Shown: positions 16,267 through 60,522 of the stretch, one piece after another
How positions within the stretch are numbered: position 1 is the stretch's first letter
How the letters are laid out: every line of letters starts with the position of its first letter
Assembly: GCF_003952525.1 (NCBI RefSeq)
Contig: NZ_CP034451.1
Span: 3,348,001 to 3,412,000 of the forward strand
Reading direction: 5' to 3'
Source: Mesorhizobium sp. M3A.F.Ca.ET.080.04.2.1
GTDB taxonomy: Bacteria > Pseudomonadota > Alphaproteobacteria > Rhizobiales > Rhizobiaceae
DNA length: 64,000 nt
Translations under genes and position numbers: made by a program
The notes under the pieces: generated by a model
Databases searched by the model: none
Told to the model about the DNA's origin: nothing
The model's input: the letters and a program-made list of their open reading frames with translations, nothing else

Positions 16267-16677
16267 GTGACTCCCTCGGCGATTCTGGAATCAGCGCTCT
16301 ACGTCACAGATCTAACCGCTGCCGAACAGTTCTATCGCGACATCCTCGGCCTCGAGGTGCTGGGCAAGGTCGAAGGCCGGCACGTGTTCTTCCGCTGCGG
16401 CAACGGCGTGCTCCTCCTCTTCAATGCCGAGGCAACCAAAATACCGCCGGCACCCGACGCCAAAGTGCAGGTGCCGCCGCACGGCACGGTGGGCGAAGGC
16501 CATCTCTGCTTCACCGCAAGCGCCGACGAGATCGCCGAATGGCGCAAGCACCTGGCGGCGAGGAACATCGCCATCGAAAGCGATTTTGAATGGCCGCAGG
16601 GCGGACACTCGATCTATATCCGCGACCCGTCGGGCAATTCGATCGAGTTCGCCGAGCCAAGGATCTGGGGCCTCTGA
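16267..16677 (+). CDS. VOC-family (glyoxalase/bleomycin resistance-like) protein
   Basis: A 136-residue vicinal-oxygen-chelate fold protein with two beta-alpha-beta-beta-beta units. The first starts [28 protein letters not shown], and the second ends [23 protein letters not shown]. Probable metal ligands are a His in the GEGHLCF segment and the Glu in SIEFAE. VOC proteins cover glyoxalases, dioxygenases and antibiotic-resistance proteins; the substrate cannot be assigned. The GTG start at 16267 lies immediately after a long repeat whose GAGGGGGG probably acts as its Shine-Dalgarno sequence. The TGA overlaps the ATG of rdgB by one base. Confidence 0.88.
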
Positions 16678-48275: not shown

Positions 48276-49097
48276 TTATCTGTTCTTTCCGCGCAGGGCA
48301 ACGATGGCCGCCGCCGTTTCCTCGATGGAGCGGCGGCTGACGTCGATCATCGGCCAGCCATGCCTGGTGCAGAGCTGGCGCGCATAGGCGAGCTCCTCGT
48401 TGATCGAGACGCGATCGATATAGTCGGTCGAGACATAAGGGGCGGTGTTGCCGAGGATGCGGTTCTGCCGCACATGCGAGATGCGCTCGGCAGTGGCGAC
48501 CAGGCCGACGATCAGCGGCGTCTTCGCGGCGATCAGACTTTCCGGCAGCGGCACGCCCAACACGATCGGGATGTTGGCGGTCTTGATGCCGCGGTTTGCC
48601 AGATAGATGCTGGTCGGCGTCTTCGAGGTGCGCGAGATGCCGATCAGCACGATATCGGCGTCGTCCATATTGGCCGGCAGCTGACCGTCATCATGCTCCA
48701 TGGTGAAGTTCAGCGCATCGATGCGGCGGAAATATTCGGCGTCAAGCACATGCTGGGCACCGACGCGCCGGCCGGCCGGCGTGCCGAGATAGGATTGGAA
48801 GACACTGAGCACCGGCTCGAGCACCGAAACGCAGGGCAGGCCCATGGCGGCGCAGCGCTCGTCTATGCTGCGCGCGAGCTTCTGGTCGACGACGGTGTAG
48901 AGAATGATGCCGGGCTCCTGCTCGATATCCTCGAACACCTTGGCGATCTGCTTTTCGGTGCGGATCAGCGGATAGATGTGCTCGATGGCCCGCGCGTCCT
49001 TGTACTGGGCGGACGCCGCGCGGCCGGCCGCCAGCAGCGTCTCGCCGGTGGCGTCGGAAATCAGATGCAGGTGAAAGAAGCTCTGGGGTTTGTTCAC
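48276..49097 (-). CDS. ppsR: PPDK/PEP-synthase regulatory protein, DUF299 (RP001 homologue)
   Basis: Bifunctional serine/threonine kinase and Pi-dependent phosphorylase that switches pyruvate phosphate dikinase or PEP synthase on and off. The 273-residue product begins (GTG start) with [31 protein letters not shown] and has the P-loop-like [22 protein letters not shown] and the C-terminal [16 protein letters not shown]. It is the homologue of the Rickettsia RP001 gene, which flanks the chromosomal origin opposite hemE in Caulobacter, Rickettsia and relatives. Here it is divergent from hemE across a 399-bp gap with origin features. Confidence 0.95.
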
Positions 49098-49123
49098 AAG
49101 GGCGGTTCCGGGCTGTGGGCAGA

Positions 49124-49132
49124 TGTGGACAA
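49124..49132 (-). promoter_or_regulatory. DnaA box
   Basis: TGTGGACAA on the plus strand, that is TTGTCCACA on the minus strand, within the ppsR-hemE gap. Confidence 0.75.
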
Positions 49133-49182
49133 GGCTGGACGAAAAATCGGGGCCGGCGAAGGCGACTGTATCAGATGCCAGC

Positions 49183-49191
49183 TTGTCCACA
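49183..49191 (+). promoter_or_regulatory. DnaA box
   Basis: TTGTCCACA on the plus strand, 51 bp from the inverted box at 49124-49132. Confidence 0.75.
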
Positions 49192-49496
49192 ATTCGCCCC
49201 GCTGTAGGCTTTGCCGCGGCGCTGGGGACAAAACTGGGGATCAACTTTCCTTGGCCGGTACCATCCACAGTGCCAAATTCGAGGCGGCAAGGCCAAGCCG
49301 CTGACTCCACAGCCTGAATCCGGTTCTTCCCCAGATCCCTCCAATTTGCGAACAAGGGCGCGCGACAATATGCTGACTGGCGTTTTCGGGCGGCAGGCGG
49401 GACAGGTCGCAACCACCACAACCAACAGACTCTTAGAATCAGAAGACTCTTTTAAAATAGATATTTGATTGTAAGAGACCCAAGGATCGACGCCTG

Positions 49497-50525
49497 ATGG
49501 CTGGGAAACGGATCATGCTGGACGTCCTCAAGGGCCAGACGGTCTCACCGCCGCCGCTCTGGATGATGCGCCAGGCAGGTCGCTACCTGCCGGAATATCG
49601 CAAAACCCGGAAGCGGGCCGGATCCTTCCTCGATCTCTGCTACGATCCCGAGCTTGCCGTCGAAGTGACGCTGCAGCCGATCGAACGCTTCGGCTTCGAT
49701 GCCTCGATCCTGTTCTCCGACATCCTTGTCGTGCCCAATGCGCTGGGCCGGGAAGTCCGGTTCGAAGAAGGCCGCGGGCCGATCCTGAAGCCGATCGCGG
49801 CGGCCGAGATACCGGCGCTCGATGGCGAAACGTTTCACGTGAATCTCGAGCCGGTCTACGAAACGGTGCGTCGCCTGCGCGCGAAACTGCCGGATGAAAC
49901 GACTCTGATCGGTTTCTGCGGCGCACCCTGGACGGTGGCCACCTATATGATTGCCGGCCACGGCACGCCGGATCAGGCGCCGGCACGGCTTTTTGCCTAT
50001 CGCGAACCGGAGGCTTTCGCGCGGCTTCTGAAGCTACTGGCCGACCATTCGGCCGCCTATCTCATCCGCCAGATCGAGGCCGGCGCCGATGTCGTGCAGA
50101 TTTTCGATTCCTGGTCGGGCGTTCTCGACGACGCCTCGTTCGAGGCGTTCTGCGTCGAGCCCGTGGCCGAGATCGTGCGGCAGGTGAAGGCTGCGCATCC
50201 CGATGTCCCGGTGATCGGTTTCCCGAAAGGCGCCGGCGAGCGCTATCGCGACTATCGCAAGAAGACGGGAATCACCGGTCTTGGCCTCGACTGGACCGTG
50301 CCGCTTTCGATGGCCAAGGAGTTGCAGAGCGAAGGCGCGGTGCAGGGCAATCTTGATCCGCTGCGGCTGGTCGCCGGCGGCAAGGCGCTGGCTGACGGCG
50401 TGGCCGCCATTCTTCGGACGCTCGGCGATGGCCCGCTGATCTTCAATCTCGGCCATGGCATCACGCCCGAAACACCGGTGGCGCATGTCGAGGCGATGGT
50501 GAAAATGGTGAGGAGCCGCGGATGA
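49497..50525 (+). CDS. hemE: Uroporphyrinogen decarboxylase
   Basis: Converts uroporphyrinogen III to coproporphyrinogen III in haem synthesis. The 342-residue product has the signature [20 protein letters not shown], the second motif [33 protein letters not shown] and [16 protein letters not shown] lies about ten bases before the ATG at 49497. It is the first gene to the right of oriC, and hemJ overlaps its end by four bases. A degenerate parS-like sequence (CGTTTCACGTGAATCT) lies inside the gene at 49831-49846. Confidence 0.97.
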
Positions 50526-52530: not shown

Positions 52531-52636
52531 GTCATCCTAGGGCTTGACCCGAGGATCCATGCCGTGACCTCCGCCGTCACGGCATATCCTAGGGTCTGCG
52601 CGCGTAGCTTCGCTCCTTGCTCCGGCCTAGGATGAC
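52531..52636. repeat. Composite CGTCATCC-type repeat
   Basis: Begins GTCATCCTAGGGCTTGACCC and ends GGCCTAGGATGAC, with the internal half-unit ATATCCTAGGGTCTGCGCGC and a central GCCGTGAC...GTCACGGC dyad. The stop codon of the next leftward gene (52627-52629) lies inside this element. Confidence 0.68.
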
Positions 52637-54654
52637 GAGCCCCGCCGCAGCAACTTCTCCAACTCCGCGGCATCGGTTGCCACCGGCAGGCACACTTGCC
52701 CGGTGCAGAGCCAGGCGCCTGGCTTATCCGTCGGCGGCAGCACGCCGCCGGGCAGCAGCGGTCGATTCGGTTCCGTGCCGATCGGAACGACGACATCGAC
52801 ACGCCTTGGGTCCGGTGTTCGATTCGCTACCGGAACGAGGCTTGAAGACTCAGTTCCATCTATAATGACCAGCTTCAGCGGTTCGAGCGCCAGCGCGCAG
52901 GCGTTGATGATGCCGGCCTGGCCATAGGCCTGCTGGGCGGCGCGGCCGACGGCGTGCTCGGCCGTCGTCCAGGCCTTGTCCCAGAGTTCGAGATCGCCGG
53001 TAAGAGACGAGAGCCGAACCAGTGCTTCGATGATCTGGCTGGTGGCCGAAGGGATCGCCTCGTCGACATCGCCGCGGATGCGGATCAGGACGTCACTGCT
53101 GTCCGACGCCGTCAGATAGTAGCCGGTCTCTGCACTGTCCTGATGCCAGCGGTCGAGCTGGTCGATGAACTGCTTGGCATGGTCCGAGTAGATCGAATTT
53201 CCGGTCGCCTCGAACAAGGCGATCGCGGCATTGGTCATGGCGGCATAGTCGCTCGACAAGGCCGGGAACAGCTTTTTGGCGCCCAGCATCGAATGCGGTA
53301 ACCGGCCATTCTGGCTGGCTCCGACAATATGAGCGAAGGCCTTGGCCGCGGCCTCGATCCAGTCGGATCGCCCGAAGGTTCGGCCAGCTTCGGCGAGAGC
53401 GGCGATCATCAGGCCGTTCCAGTCGGTGAGCGCCTTGCCGTCGCGTCCCGGCCTGACCCGCTTTTCCCGGCTGGCGAGCAGCTTGGCCTTCAGCGGCGCA
53501 AGTTGGATGCAGTCGGCGACGCCCTGGCGTTGTTGTCCGGCGGTCTGGCTGATAATCGGCTTGCCTTCCCAGCCATGAGGAGCGGCCAGCTCGAAATAGC
53601 GGAAGAACATAGCCGTCTCGTCCCCGAGTGCGGCTTCGACCTCTCCCGGGCTCCAGGTGTAGAACAGCCCCTCCTCGCCTTCGCTATCGGCATCGAGGCT
53701 GGCGGCAAAGGCGCCGCCGTCGTCGCGCATCTCGCGCAGCAGCCAGGCGATCGTTTCTTCGATTCGTATCCGGAACAACTCGTTCTCGCTCGCCGCATAG
53801 GCCCAGTTGCAGAGGCGGATGAGCTGGGCATTGTCGTAGAGCATCTTTTCGAAATGCGGCACCAACCATTCGGCGTCGGTCGCATAGCGGCTGAGGCCGC
53901 CGCCGAGATGGTCGTAAATGCCGCCGGCGAGCATCCTTTCGAGGCTGAGCAGCACGGCGTCGCGGTGGGCAGCGTGGCCGTCGCGGAGCCAGGACAGCCA
54001 TAGGGTGTGCATGAACGGCGCGTTGGGGAATTTCGGTGCGCCGCTCAAGCCCCCGAGATCGCGGTCGATCATGCGGTCGATACGCCCGGCGAGGTCGGCC
54101 AGCGTGCCGCGGTCGAGCGCCGCCCTGCCCTGGGTTCCGGCAAGCCGCTGCTCCACATGGGCGGCCAATCCAGCGGCGCTGTCGGCAAGGCTTTGCCGCT
54201 TCTCCCGCCATGCCTTGTCAACCGCTTCCAGCACCTGGATGAAGCCGGGGCGGCCGTAGCGGGCCTCGCGCGGAAAATAGGTGCCGCCCCAGAACGGCTT
54301 GCCGTCGGGCGTCAGGAACATGGTCAACGGCCAGCCGCCCTGCTCGCCCATGGCATGGAGTGCCGCCATATAGATCTGGTCGATGTCCGGGCGCTCCTCG
54401 CGATCGACCTTGATATTGACGAAGAGCCGGTTCATGACGGCAGCCACGGCGGCGTTCTCGAAGCTTTCATGCGCCATGACATGGCACCAGTGGCAGGCGG
54501 CATAGCCGATGGAGAGAAGGATCGGCCGTTCGAGCTCCTTGGCTTCGGCCAGGGCCGTCGGCGACCAGGCCCGCCAGTGCACGGGATTGTCGCTGTGCTG
54601 CTGCAGGTAGGGACTGGCCTCTTCGGCAAGCAGGTTTCGTGCGGGCAGGGTCAC
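52627..54654 (-). CDS. DUF255 thioredoxin-domain / glycoside-hydrolase-like protein (YyaL/spermatogenesis-20 family)
   Basis: A 675-residue protein. The N-terminal thioredoxin-like domain has the motif SIGYAACHWCHVMAHESFEN with CxxC (CHWC), preceded by the family start NLLAEEASPYLQQHSDNPVHW. The remainder is an alpha/alpha-toroid resembling six-hairpin glycosidases (EKMLYDNAQLIRLCNWAYAAS, SFDAD-like SLDADSEGEEGLFYTWSP, DGKALTDWNGLMIAALAEAGR). Function is not established. The start is uncertain because the frame is open back to 54951 into mnmE; GTG 54654 is taken because it gives the normal family length. No good Shine-Dalgarno sequence is visible. Confidence 0.9.
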   Translation of the reverse strand: MTLPARNLLAEEASPYLQQHSDNPVHWRAWSPTALAEAKELERPILLSIGYAACHWCHVMAHESFENAAVAAVMNRLFVNIKVDREERPDIDQIYMAALHAMGEQGGWPLTMFLTPDGKPFWGGTYFPREARYGRPGFIQVLEAVDKAWREKRQSLADSAAGLAAHVEQRLAGTQGRAALDRGTLADLAGRIDRMIDRDLGGLSGAPKFPNAPFMHTLWLSWLRDGHAAHRDAVLLSLERMLAGGIYDHLGGGLSRYATDAEWLVPHFEKMLYDNAQLIRLCNWAYAASENELFRIRIEETIAWLLREMRDDGGAFAASLDADSEGEEGLFYTWSPGEVEAALGDETAMFFRYFELAAPHGWEGKPIISQTAGQQRQGVADCIQLAPLKAKLLASREKRVRPGRDGKALTDWNGLMIAALAEAGRTFGRSDWIEAAAKAFAHIVGASQNGRLPHSMLGAKKLFPALSSDYAAMTNAAIALFEATGNSIYSDHAKQFIDQLDRWHQDSAETGYYLTASDSSDVLIRIRGDVDEAIPSATSQIIEALVRLSSLTGDLELWDKAWTTAEHAVGRAAQQAYGQAGIINACALALEPLKLVIIDGTESSSLVPVANRTPDPRRVDVVVPIGTEPNRPLLPGGVLPPTDKPGAWLCTGQVCLPVATDAAELEKLLRRGSSS

Positions 54655-54763
54655 GATGGGCGGCTCGGCATGATCGTTGATGAGCGACAATTCCGGCAAG
54701 CCAGCAGCAGCGTGTCCGGAATTGTGAAACGAAATACCTAGGGCGGTTCGGCAGGTCGGGCAA

Positions 54764-56086
54764 ATGGTTTCCCAGATGGCTTCGAAGGATTCGATCGTGG
54801 CGCTGTCGAGCGGCCGCCTGCCGGCCGGGGTCGCTGTGGTCCGCATCTCGGGCCCGAAGACTCGATTCGTGGTCGAAACGATCGCTGCCGGAGGCGTTAA
54901 GGAAAGGCATGCCACGCTGCGCAAGCTGACGGCGTCGGATGGCTCGGTCATCGATCACGGGCTTGTTCTGTTCTTTGCGGGGCCGGCAAGCTTTACCGGC
55001 GAGGACGTCGCCGAGTTCCATGTTCATGGCGGCCGCGCCGTTGCCGCGAAGCTGCTCGAGGCGATCACGGCCTTCGATGACATCAGGCACGCCGAGCCGG
55101 GCGAGTTTACCCGGCGCGCCTTTCTCAACGGCAAACTCGATCTGGTGGAGACGGAAGCGTTGGCCGATCTCGTTAGTGCCGAGACGGAAGCGCAGCGCCG
55201 CTTTGCCGTGCGCAATGCGGAAGGCGTGCAGAGCGATCTTTACGCGGGCTGGCGCCGGCGGCTGATCCATGCACGCGCGATGATCGAGGCGGAGATCGAC
55301 TTCGCCGAGGAAGACGATGTGCCAGGCTCTGTTTCGGACGCGGTTTGGTCTGATGTGGCCACGATGATTGTCGAGATCGAACGCCACATCCGCGGGTTCA
55401 AGGCCGCCGAAATTATCCGCGACGGCTTTGAGGTGGTTATCCTCGGCGCGCCAAATGCCGGCAAGTCCAGCCTGTTCAATGCACTCGCCCAGCGAGAGGC
55501 GGCGATCGTGACTGACGAGCCGGGGACCACCCGGGACCTACTGGAAGTGGCGCTTGATCTGAACGGGATGCGCGTTCGGGTCGTCGATACAGCCGGTTTG
55601 CGCGAGGCCGTCGGCAAAGTCGAGACTATCGGCATCGAAAGGGCACGCGCCAAGGCCGGCGGCGCCGACCTTGTGCTGCTGCTGGAGGACATGACAGGTC
55701 CCCTGCCCGTGGGCGAGATTCCGGCAGGTGTGCCTTTGCTCAAGCTGGGGACGAAAGCTGATCTCGGAGCTGGACAGCCGAACGGCTATGATCTTTTGAT
55801 CTCGTCGAAGGACGGCACGGGGCTGACCGCGCTGCTGGACGTAATTGGCAGCCGCGCTGCGCAAGCGATCGGCGATGCCGGCGATATCCTGCCGTCGAGG
55901 CTTCGGCACGTCGAGCTCTTGAACGAGGCGAAGGGCTTTCTTGCGAGGGCCCGTTCCGGGGTGAGCCCGGAACTGAGGGCTGAGGACCTGCGCTTGGCGG
56001 CCGATCGTATCGGGAAGATCGTCGGTGCCGTTGACGTCGAGGACCTGCTCGACGTCATCTTCTCGCAGTTCTGCATTGGGAAGTGA
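54764..56086 (+). CDS. mnmE: tRNA uridine-5-carboxymethylaminomethyl GTPase MnmE
   Basis: GTPase that, with MnmG, modifies the wobble uridine (cmnm5U) of several tRNAs. The 440-residue product has the N-terminal folate-binding domain (DSIVALSSGRLPAGVAVVRISGP, SFTGEDVAEFHVHGG, AEPGEFTRRAFLNGKLDL). The G domain has G1 GAPNAGKSS, the DEPGTTRD switch and G3 DTAG, but G4 reads GTKAD rather than NKxD. The C-terminal CIGK carries the catalytic Cys. Start is ATG 54764, with 54776 possible. Three parS-like sites follow directly after its stop. Confidence 0.97.
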   Translation: MVSQMASKDSIVALSSGRLPAGVAVVRISGPKTRFVVETIAAGGVKERHATLRKLTASDGSVIDHGLVLFFAGPASFTGEDVAEFHVHGGRAVAAKLLEAITAFDDIRHAEPGEFTRRAFLNGKLDLVETEALADLVSAETEAQRRFAVRNAEGVQSDLYAGWRRRLIHARAMIEAEIDFAEEDDVPGSVSDAVWSDVATMIVEIERHIRGFKAAEIIRDGFEVVILGAPNAGKSSLFNALAQREAAIVTDEPGTTRDLLEVALDLNGMRVRVVDTAGLREAVGKVETIGIERARAKAGGADLVLLLEDMTGPLPVGEIPAGVPLLKLGTKADLGAGQPNGYDLLISSKDGTGLTALLDVIGSRAAQAIGDAGDILPSRLRHVELLNEAKGFLARARSGVSPELRAEDLRLAADRIGKIVGAVDVEDLLDVIFSQFCIGK

Positions 56087-56173
56087 CTCACGTGAAACAC
56101 CGGATCGCGGCGCGCCGGCGTGACTCACGTGAAACACCGCAGGCTGCAATGGTGGCGTGTTTCACGTGAAACG
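56084..56173. promoter_or_regulatory. parS cluster (three sites)
   Basis: Three 16-bp ParB-binding sequences: TGACTCACGTGAAACA at 56084-56099 and again at 56121-56136 (two mismatches each to TGTTTCACGTGAAACA), and TGTTTCACGTGAAACG at 56158-56173 (one mismatch). The first overlaps the mnmE stop codon. They lie 2.6 kb before parA, about 7 kb from oriC. Confidence 0.88.
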
Positions 56174-58124: not shown

Positions 58125-58762
58125 GCGCTGATGCCTGGGAAGACCTGCAGCAGGCTGCCGGTGCGGTTTCACGTGAAACATTCGAACGTCTCAAGGTCTT
58201 CGAGCGGCTCTTCCTCAAATGGAATCGCAGCATCAATCTGGCGGCGCCGTCGACGCTGGAGGACGTCTGGCGTCGCCATGTCCTCGACAGCGCTCAGCTT
58301 GCCCGAATCGCGCCTGTCGCAAAGCGGTGGGTCGACATCGGCTCGGGCGGCGGCTTTCCCGGATTGGTGATGGGTTTCCTGCTGGCCGAGCGCGCGGGCG
58401 CGTCAATCGACCTGGTCGAGAGCAACCGCAAGAAAGCGTCGTTCCTGCAGTCCGTCGTTGGCCAGTTCGGGCTGCCGGCACGAGTCCTCGCGCGGCGCAT
58501 CGACGACAGCTATCCTTTTATTTCCGCACCGGAAATTGTGACAGCGCGGGCATTGGCGGCACTGCCCGAACTGCTTGGTCTGTCAGCGCCCTGGCTGACG
58601 CAAGGGTCGCGCGCGCTCTTTCATAAAGGCCGGGATTACCGAGCCGAAGTGGAAGAAAGCGCTCACCGCTGGACCTTCGATCTGGTAGAACATCCCAGCA
58701 TGACCGACCCCCACGCCGTCATCCTGGAAATCACCGATCTGCGCCCGGCGACCCCACAATGA
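58121..58762 (+). CDS. rsmG: 16S rRNA (guanine527-N7)-methyltransferase RsmG (GidB)
   Basis: SAM-dependent methylation of G527 of 16S rRNA; loss confers low-level streptomycin resistance. The 213-residue product has [31 protein letters not shown], the SAM motif [21 protein letters not shown] and [15 protein letters not shown]. Near the N-terminus the codons for [10 protein letters not shown] contain a one-mismatch parS site (58165-58180), so a coding segment doubles as a ParB-binding site. GTG start at 58121 overlaps mnmG by four bases and the stop overlaps parA. Confidence 0.97.
58165..58180. promoter_or_regulatory. parS site inside rsmG
   Basis: GGTTTCACGTGAAACA, one mismatch to the consensus TGTTTCACGTGAAACA, encoding part of VSRET near the rsmG N-terminus. 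It is about 0.6 kb upstream of parA. Confidence 0.82.
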
Positions 58763-59577
58763 ATTACTGGCATAGACCCATGAAAACTGGACCGCGTATC
58801 ATCACCGTTGCCAACCAGAAGGGCGGCGTCGGCAAGACGACCACGGCGATCAATCTGGCCACCGCGCTGGCCGCGATCGGCGAACAGGTGCTGATCGTCG
58901 ATCTCGATCCGCAGGGCAATGCCAGCACCGGTCTCGGCATCGACCGCAAGGACCGCACGGTGTCGTCCTACGACGTGCTGACGGGCGAGCTCGAGCTCGA
59001 AGCAGCCGCGGTGCCGACGGCGGTACCGGGCTTGTCGATCGTGCCTTCGACCCTCGACCTGCTCGGCATCGAGATGGAGATCGCCTCGGCCCCCGACCGG
59101 GTGCTGCGCCTGCGCAATGCATTGCGCGCCGCTGCCGAACGCGCGGCACCGTTCGGCTATGTGCTCATCGACTGCCCGCCGTCGCTCAACCTTTTGACTT
59201 TGAATTCAATGGCGGCAGCCGATTCGGTTCTGGTGCCGCTGCAATGCGAATTCTTCGCGCTGGAAGGTCTCAGCCAGCTGCTCGAGACGGTCGAGCAGGT
59301 GCGCCGCACGATCAATCCGGATCTCACCATCCAAGGCATCGTGCTCACCATGTTCGACGGCCGCAACAACCTCGCCAACCAAGTGGTGCAGGACGTTCGG
59401 GCGCATATGGGCGACAAGGTTTACGAGACGATCATCCCGCGCAATGTGCGCGTTTCCGAAGCCCCCTCCTACGGCAAGCCGGCGATCCTTTACGATCTCA
59501 AATGCTCGGGCAGCCAGGCCTATCTGCAACTCGCCTCCGAAGTGATCCGCCGCGAGCGCAAGCTGCGCGCAGCCTGA
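58759..59577 (+). CDS. parA: Chromosome-partitioning ATPase ParA
   Basis: Walker-type DNA-binding ATPase that moves ParB-bound origins apart. The 272-residue product has the deviant Walker A motif [53 protein letters not shown] and [24 protein letters not shown], as in chromosomal ParA/Soj. The ATG at 58759 overlaps the rsmG stop; MKTGPRII at 58780 is an alternative. parB follows after 54 bp, giving the canonical rsmG-parA-parB operon near the origin. Confidence 0.98.
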
Positions 59578-59631
59578 TCGCATCCTGATGACGATTAGCC
59601 GATTCCATCCCGAAACGACCTGGACAGAATA

Positions 59632-60522
59632 ATGAGCGAAGACCAATCGAGAAAAAGACTGGGCCGTGGGCTCGCGGCGCTGATCGGCGAGATCGACCGT
59701 CCGGCAGTGGCGGAAAAGCCGAGCCAAGTCGCGGCGGACGGCAAGGTGCCGATCGAGTTCGTCAGCCCCAACCCGAAGAACCCGCGCCGGCATTTCGGCG
59801 ATGCCGAGCTTACCGATCTGGCGCAATCGATCCGCGAACATGGCGTGGTGCAGCCCGTGGTGGCGCGGCCAGCGCCGTCGCAGCCCGGCCGTTACGAGAT
59901 CATCGCCGGCGAGCGGCGCTGGCGGGCGGCGCAACGTGCAGGACTCACCGAGATCCCGCTGATCGTGCGCGACGTCAACGATCGCACCGCGCTGGAACTG
60001 GCGATCATCGAGAACGTGCAGCGCGCCGACCTCAATCCGGTCGAGGAGGCGCAAGGCTACCAGCAACTGATCGACGAGCATGGCTATACCCAGGCCGATC
60101 TCGGCCAGGTGATCGGCAAAAGCCGCAGCCATGTCGCCAATACGCTCAGGCTGCTCAAGCTGCCCGGGGTCATCCATGACATGCTTGTCGACGGCGCACT
60201 GTCTGCCGGGCATGCGCGCACGCTGGTGACGGCCGGCGATCCGGCCGGGCTTGCGAAGCGGATCGTCGAGGAAGGACTTTCGGTCCGCCAGGCCGAAGCA
60301 CTGGCGCAGATGCCGGCCGGTCCGACGCCGGCCAAAGTGAAAACCGCGTCGAGCGCGCCGGACAAGGATCCCGACACGCTGGCGCTGGAAAAGCTGATGA
60401 CCGACACGATCGGCATGATCGTCAGCATCGAGCACAAGGGCAAAGGCGGCACGCTGCGGGTCAATTACCGCACGCTGGACCAACTCGACGAGCTCTGCCG
60501 ACGTCTCAAAGACGAACGCTAG
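59632..60522 (+). CDS. parB: Chromosome-partitioning protein ParB
   Basis: CTP-dependent DNA clamp that loads at parS and spreads. The 296-residue product has an N-terminal ParA-contact segment (RKRLGRGLAALIGEI), the CTP-binding/hydrolysis motif IIAGERRWRAAQRAG (GERRWR), the ENVQRADLNPVEEAQGY motif, a central HTH (YTQADLGQVIGKSRSHVANTLRLLKLP) and a C-terminal dimerisation domain (GTLRVNYRTLDQLDELCRRL). Its likely targets are the parS sites at 56084-56173 and 58165-58180. Confidence 0.98.
   Translation: MSEDQSRKRLGRGLAALIGEIDRPAVAEKPSQVAADGKVPIEFVSPNPKNPRRHFGDAELTDLAQSIREHGVVQPVVARPAPSQPGRYEIIAGERRWRAAQRAGLTEIPLIVRDVNDRTALELAIIENVQRADLNPVEEAQGYQQLIDEHGYTQADLGQVIGKSRSHVANTLRLLKLPGVIHDMLVDGALSAGHARTLVTAGDPAGLAKRIVEEGLSVRQAEALAQMPAGPTPAKVKTASSAPDKDPDTLALEKLMTDTIGMIVSIEHKGKGGTLRVNYRTLDQLDELCRRLKDER

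Follow-up and report, generated by a model that had tools for sequence, protein, structure and literature searches.

The intergenic region between ppsR and hemE is the probable chromosomal replication origin of a Mesorhizobium strain

The 399-bp gap between a ppsR-family gene and hemE (positions 49098 to 49496 of the 64-kb stretch of DNA analyzed here, called the window; near 3.397 Mb of the 6,165,597-base chromosome) is very probably the site (oriC) from which this Mesorhizobium initiates DnaA-dependent replication of its chromosome. The assignment as oriC follows from the genomic address, a cluster of conserved DnaA boxes, an unstable tract, GANTC sites, neighboring parAB genes and parS-like sites, and octamer polarity taken together, and the same lines of evidence uphold a sequence-only reading that had proposed oriC here. 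Judged by its sequence features, the gap appears to be a DnaA-type oriC at the alphaproteobacterial hemE-ppsR address, and neither a CtrA-regulated origin of the Cori type nor a DnaA-trio origin.

On the left, the gap is bounded by the minus-strand ppsR-family gene (DUF299/COG1806, RP001 homologue; 48276 to 49097), whose GTG start is at 49097; on this side, the codon-like conservation pattern of the genus alignment also ends at 49097. The protein reaches 340 bits with the NCBIfam subfamily model NF003742 (cutoff, 225) and 140 with the PpsR equivalog model NF049928, which is under the cutoff of 350. The right boundary is hemE on the plus strand (49497 to 50525; ATG at 49497; TIGR01464, 416 bits; cutoff, 303). 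As the sequence-only reading had described, the flanking genes are transcribed away from the gap on both sides: maf, aroE, coaE, and dnaQ, named by eye from their open reading frames (ORFs), point leftwards, and hemE, hemJ, and rho point rightwards. To the right of rho, one large minus-strand ORF (52627 to 54951) is followed by mnmE and mnmG on the plus strand. The gap thus occupies the position between hemE and COG1806/ppsR that characterizes alphaproteobacterial origins. The origin of Sinorhizobium meliloti lies near hemE. The claim that RP001-oriC-hemE is the known arrangement in Caulobacter and Rickettsia agrees with the accessible text of a published study (PMC1914354). According to that text, Cori of Caulobacter crescentus shares with our gap the location between hemE and COG1806/ppsR, a length of about 400 bp, and an AT content of 43.6%, and the origin of Rickettsia prowazekii has the same hemE-COG1806 address in a gap of 384 bp but is 82.55% AT, compared to 43.6% in Mesorhizobium.

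Two perfect inverted DnaA boxes of the type TTGTCCACA are located in the gap, at 49124 to 49132 on the minus strand and 49183 to 49191 on the plus strand, as first noticed from the letters alone, and both are one mismatch away from the E. coli box TTATCCACA. The left one reads TTATCCACA in 36 and TTGTCCACA in 22 of 60 genus genomes, with at most one mismatch in 59 of 60; the right one is identical in 59 of 60. A third box with one mismatch had also been claimed and is indeed present, but there are two such boxes, not one: TTGTTCACA at 49090 to 49098 (plus strand) and TTGTCCCCA at 49223 to 49231 (minus strand), each one mismatch from TTGTCCACA. The first of these overlaps the ppsR start codon and falls almost outside the gap (49098 to 49496), and its conservation (identical in 57 of 59 genus sequences) is ambiguous because the site is partly coding. 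The second, identical in 58 of 60 genomes, includes a TCCCCA W-box core (49223). Two more W-box-like TCCCCA sites occur at 49235 to 49240 (minus strand; one base off the genus consensus) and at 49328 to 49333 (plus strand; identical in 50 of 60). A weak DnaA-box-like site, CCATCCACA, at 49261 to 49269 (plus strand) has two mismatches to TTATCCACA here; the commonest form in the genus is TCATCCACA, and 42 of 60 genomes are within one mismatch of TTRTCCACA.

Could such a group of short motifs have arisen by chance? In number, the one-mismatch boxes of the window are unremarkable, with five TTATCCACA boxes against 3.2 expected and 25 of 100 shuffles reaching five. The spacing is unusual, meaning that the cluster is more than chance. 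TTGTCCACA has 21 exact sites on the chromosome, and the only pair less than 1 kb apart is the pair in the gap; exact TTATCCACA occurs nine times on the chromosome and not at all in the gap. With a wider class of box (up to one mismatch to TTATCCACA or TTGTCCACA), the gap together with the ppsR start has four boxes in 200 bp, and nowhere else in the 1.975 Mb that were read, equal to 32% of the chromosome, does a 400-bp stretch exceed two. With the strict class (up to one mismatch to TTATCCACA), the count in the gap is two, which three other places in the same 1.975 Mb equal; one of these, at 2,685,886, precedes the dnaA domain by about 1.4 kb. The conservation of the motifs in 60 gaps of the genus and across nearer genera makes a chance cluster scarcely credible, and the gap has what is expected of a DnaA-dependent oriC, a DnaA-box cluster in an intergenic region.

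A second expected property of such origins is an easily melted AT-rich tract beside the boxes. No 50-mer of the window is less stable than the segment from 49427 to 49476, a candidate DNA-unwinding element; positions 49421 to 49480 are 68% AT in a window with 64.5% GC, and the tract is conserved in composition, with 69 to 78% AT across 60 genomes. The AT-rich tract pointed out earlier beside the GANTC sites is therefore borne out by both its composition and its duplex stability, the lowest of the window. GANTC, the CcrM methylation motif, was said to occur five times with three copies within 22 bp, and the sites are found at 49303 and 49316 (49303 to 49320; kept in 55 and 47 of 60 genomes) and at 49428, 49436, and 49445 (49428 to 49449; kept in 60, 60, and 55 of 60). 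The window holds 116 GANTC sites, from which about 0.7 would be expected per 399 bp; another triplet within 22 bp occurs at 16269. The N base varies freely at 49316 and 49445 among the 60 genus genomes, a pattern that points to selection for the methylation motif as such. A gene for a CcrM-like methylase with N6_N4_Mtase and RAMA domains is present at 1.808 Mb. Searches for exact consensus sequences in the gap revealed neither CtrA sites (TTAA-N7-TTAA or TTWW-N7-TTWW, both strands) nor an IHF site (WATCAN5WTR).

The query stretch is matched in all 61 genus genomes examined, which were drawn from a larger group. One of them (G023) matches in the hemE part only and was left out of the genus alignment (n = 60), its contig ending within the gap; G003, whose record starts inside the gap, joins the alignment from query base 151. 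Both DnaA boxes and GANTC sites are conserved across the 60 aligned gaps. A further run of conserved columns, GCGACTGTATCAGATG (49162 to 49177), lies beside the box at 49183; this block matches no known motif. Its conservation is strong both within the genus and in near genera, with zero to two mismatches in loci L188 to L199 and at least four in the other listed loci. Of 80 named loci, 67 have at least two strict boxes (up to one mismatch to TTATCCACA) upstream of hemE and 42 have at least three; among 707 control stretches taken from these loci, the corresponding numbers are 2 and 0. The 80 loci do not count as independent cases, being related and in many instances from Mesorhizobium. A divergent ppsR gene stands beside hemE in 93 of 110 loci, of which 77 have at least two boxes; among loci lacking ppsR with at least 1.2 kb of upstream sequence, only 4 of 16 do, one of the 110 being excluded for too little upstream sequence. 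Brucella, Agrobacterium, Rhizobium, and Phyllobacterium gaps share the hemE-ppsR address, two to four strict boxes, and a conserved block before hemE that we call block C, but box positions and types shift between genera. Across the order (L253 to L278), only 11 of 26 loci have at least two strict boxes before hemE. Within the genus, an insertion of about 90 to 350 bp separates the AT tract from hemE (between 49480 and 49496) in 7 of 61 genomes (G006, G018, G019, G025, G046, G047, and G060).

No ppsR gene was found upstream of hemE in seven loci of the Mangrovicella/Aurantimonas/Aureimonas/Jiella type (L220, L223, L225, L228, L229, L233, and L244). Each retains at most one strict box, so the origin may have changed in these species; in L229, a maf-like gene adjoins hemE. 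In Pseudaminobacter soli (L210), hemE lies directly behind a hemA-like gene, as judged by eye, and the locus has neither strict boxes nor block C; here hemE has left the origin.

No other part of the gap is as widely conserved among nearer relatives as block C (CCAACAGACTCTTAGAATCA, 49422 to 49441; core ACAGAcTCt-AGAAtcAgAA, 49425 to 49444), which in them mostly lies 60 to 120 bp before hemE. It is present with up to six mismatches in 73 of 80 named loci, differing by one mismatch in Brucella/Ochrobactrum, two in Phyllobacterium, three in one Agrobacterium locus, and four in one Bartonella locus; shuffled blocks compared with random 700-bp stretches of the same loci usually have 8 to 10 mismatches and reach six or fewer in 2 of 200 cases. 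As an order-wide mark it was rejected, with up to six mismatches in only 2 of 26 loci (L253 to L278). In the 83 loci with a good core, the first part of the block is GANTC in 80, N being C, G, or T, a count that is colored by the choice of loci with a core containing GACTC. Loci outside Mesorhizobium mostly have a weak box-like TTAATCC in front of the block. Six of the ppsR-less loci (L220, L223, L225, L228, L229, and L233) keep block C with four to six mismatches, and it is absent from L210, where hemE follows the hemA-like gene, and from L201, L203, and L205. Retention without ppsR and loss behind the hemA-like gene fit an origin-opening element and a hemE promoter alike, and block C may be either or both.

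These observations raise the question of whether the gap serves only as a divergent promoter region, with DnaA and CcrM as the regulators of ppsR and hemE. Both genes start at the gap, so their promoters must lie within or near it, and the usual distance of block C from hemE and its persistence at the six ppsR-less loci suit this explanation. Yet promoters alone would not need boxes at this density, the unstable tract, or the parS neighborhood described below, and a crude scan of the gap for sigma-70-like promoters found none, with 0.2 expected. A purely regulatory role is therefore highly unlikely, and promoters and origin can overlap in the gap.

For an oriC at this position, a tentative suggestion is that block C, together with the TTAATCC preceding it in most relatives outside Mesorhizobium, is an origin-opening element; this reading covers Mesorhizobium, Brucella, Phyllobacterium, Agrobacterium, Rhizobium, Bartonella, and Aurantimonas-type loci. 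Since the GANTC of block C adjoins the melting tract, CcrM methylation could conceivably gate strand opening directly, in an origin without Cori-type CtrA sites, and the block provides a precise target for probing methylation control of initiation without such sites. Block C also has four NAN steps with a near-invariant A, a likeness to the DnaA-box/DnaA-trio basal unwinding system as set out in the available part of PMC8287927. At least four NAN steps occur in 53 of 56 loci outside Mesorhizobium, loci that were themselves chosen by likeness to a NAN-bearing core. The DnaA-trio reading was not adopted, because of this selection bias and because the A-steps of block C, read 5' to 3', lead away from the boxes, opposite to the published arrangement on a 5' tail (PMC8287927). 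In this genome, no box (up to two mismatches) was followed by three NAN steps within 16 bp on its own strand.

The chromosome segregation genes lie close by. The parA and parB genes (58759 to 60522, plus strand; Pfam AAA_31 and ParB_N, HTH_ParB, and ParB_C) are accompanied by three parS-like sites (56084, 56121, and 56158; 56084 to 56173) in the end of mnmE and the mnmE-mnmG interval and by a fourth (58165 to 58180) in the ORF that follows mnmG and was judged by eye to be rsmG. A search of the whole chromosome, allowing up to two mismatches to what we take to be the parS consensus, revealed only these four places, all 6.6 to 8.7 kb to the right of the gap and none near dnaA. The 13-bp parS core is present in 60 of 61 genus genomes. 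parS is expected within about 10 kb of an alphaproteobacterial hemE-COG1806 origin, and this is where it is found.

The polarity of KOPS-like (FtsK-polar) octamers bears on the origin from a greater distance. A dif-like site with three mismatches at 609,712 (the genome has three such places, and a reversed-pattern control has one) sits between a forward run of GGGCAGGG ending at 608,866 and a reverse run starting at 613,579, and the octamer switch at the terminus coincides with it. Left-arm samples (0.62 to 2.65 Mb) contain 2 forward and 30 reverse octamers and 4 forward and 19 reverse; the other samples contain 8 and 8 (3.41 to 4.4 Mb), 24 and 6 (4.6 to 6.1 Mb), and 5 and 8 (0 to 0.6 Mb). Between dnaA and the gap there are 16 forward and 36 reverse octamers (P = 0.008), the same polarity as the left arm, indicating that the origin lies to the right of dnaA. 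From the gap to 3.955 Mb, the octamers are barely polarized (27 forward, 21 reverse; P = 0.47), and their cumulative minimum falls at 3,484,292 to 3,489,686, which is 87 to 92 kb to the right of the gap. The octamers thus argue against dnaA as the switch better than they place it at hemE. In the segment from about 42 to 403 kb, GGGCAGGG is mostly reverse (17 of 24 by hand count) despite lying on the right-arm side of the dif-like site; this segment has possibly been inverted or acquired.

The best rival origin is the region upstream of dnaA (2.687 Mb), about 0.71 Mb from the gap. If replication started there, the gap would be a former origin or a DnaA-titrating site, and the composition of the chromosome lends this some weight. 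A switch in strand composition usually accompanies a DnaA-dependent oriC, although it does not strictly define one. The GC-skew check proposed with the sequence-only reading failed to give a minimum at the gap; in the contiguous stretch from 2.6 to 3.955 Mb, the minimum is at 2,664,672, near dnaA (2,687,306). Across the entire chromosome (40 samples), cumulative GC skew reaches its lowest value at 310 kb and dips at 2.635 Mb, again with no minimum at the gap. The skew of this genome is weak and of mixed sign along the left arm, and it conflicts with the octamer polarity; third-position skew by gene strand has no sign change at the gap and no clear switch. Classifiers of strand composition based on strand-asymmetric 3- and 4-mers place the switch at 3.40 Mb in two of six settings and at 2.78 to 2.80 Mb in four, an outcome that varies with settings at a leave-one-stretch-out accuracy of 0.66 to 0.78. 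Upstream of dnaA, at least two boxes lie within 1.5 kb of the domain in all nine genus genomes read (2685706 to 2687306 in this genome), and exact TTGTCCACA occurs there in five of eight relatives, although not in this genome.

Against an origin at dnaA, these upstream boxes are all on one strand and are spread over 0.2 to 0.5 kb, a pattern that autoregulation would also explain and which probably reflects it. The lack of parS-like places around dnaA and the left-arm-like octamers between dnaA and the gap argue in the same direction. In addition, dnaA and hemE are widely separated in one relative (G004), where about 2.1 Mb lie between dnaA (0.40 Mb) and the gap (2.52 Mb). Among the samples of that genome, cumulative GC skew is lowest at 2.41 Mb, some 0.1 Mb short of the gap and about 2.0 Mb from dnaA; the 20 stretches sampled cover 6% of the one chromosome, more densely near the gap, and their octamers are too few to be informative. 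The skew of G004 follows hemE, not dnaA. Overall, an origin at dnaA is unlikely, and the probable replication start of the Mesorhizobium chromosome is at hemE, about 0.7 Mb from both dnaA and the skew minimum of the contiguous stretch. Among the nine genus genomes searched for dnaA, the assemblies of G008, G032, and G037 start within 2 kb of dnaA; one genus assembly, that of G003, starts inside the gap. With three of nine records beginning so close to dnaA, analyses of gene dosage and replichores would be misled by coordinates that take dnaA or the skew minimum as the origin. About 10 to 30 kb to the right of the gap in G004, a 20-kb stretch (L289) has 46.8% GC and is perhaps an acquired island near the origin.

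From the sites, their conservation and position, the clustering of parS, and the methylase gene, we infer the following course of events for an oriC in the gap. DnaA would load on the strong inverted boxes at 49124 and 49183 and then extend in the direction of hemE, occupying the weaker boxes and TCCCCA sites. Melting would follow in the AT-rich tract at 49427 to 49476, after which the helicase would be loaded and two forks would depart. The CcrM-type methylase encoded in this genome probably acts on the GANTC sites within and next to the tract that melts; those in the tract would become hemimethylated once the fork passes, which could mark newly copied origins. ParB would spread from parS, 7 to 9 kb to the right, and carry the new origin to a pole.

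How does this origin compare to those already described? parABS is located close to Cori in C. crescentus, as it is to our gap. The strong boxes of Cori are G-boxes of the type TGATCCACA, whereas those of the Mesorhizobium gap are of the types TTGTCCACA and TTATCCACA. Cori likewise combines DnaA boxes with TCCCCA W-box cores, according to the part of PMC4285127 available, which describes TTGTCCACA-type boxes in Actinobacteria and TCCCCA cores in Caulobacter. In contrast to Cori, the gap contains no matches to the CtrA consensus, strict or loose, or to the IHF consensus, and dnaA is 0.71 Mb away. Predicted origins apart from dnaA or near hemE have also been reported, in the portions of the texts at hand, for Methylocystis SC2, which has no clear GC-skew pattern and a predicted oriC away from its dnaA genes (PMC3794950), and for Sphingopyxis TFA, whose oriC was placed near hemE by authors who hold that the database-predicted origin of a relative should move to hemE (PMC4741004); both differ from our case in being other genera, and their origins too are predictions as far as these portions show. 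The openly searchable literature, to which the search was confined with subscription papers outside it, yielded no paper on the Mesorhizobium origin, and oriC is not treated in the accessible part of PMC10185800. The address is already known from relatives, making the Mesorhizobium gap an ordinary further case and block C the interesting residue.

Two irregularities were encountered in the genomes compared. In G036, eighteen extra weak DnaA-domain matches, most of them equal in score, are probably copies of an insertion-sequence ATPase. A locus from an assembly titled Bacillus subtilis SK6B4 (L212) holds a rhizobial hemE-ppsR locus, and that assembly is probably mislabeled or mixed.
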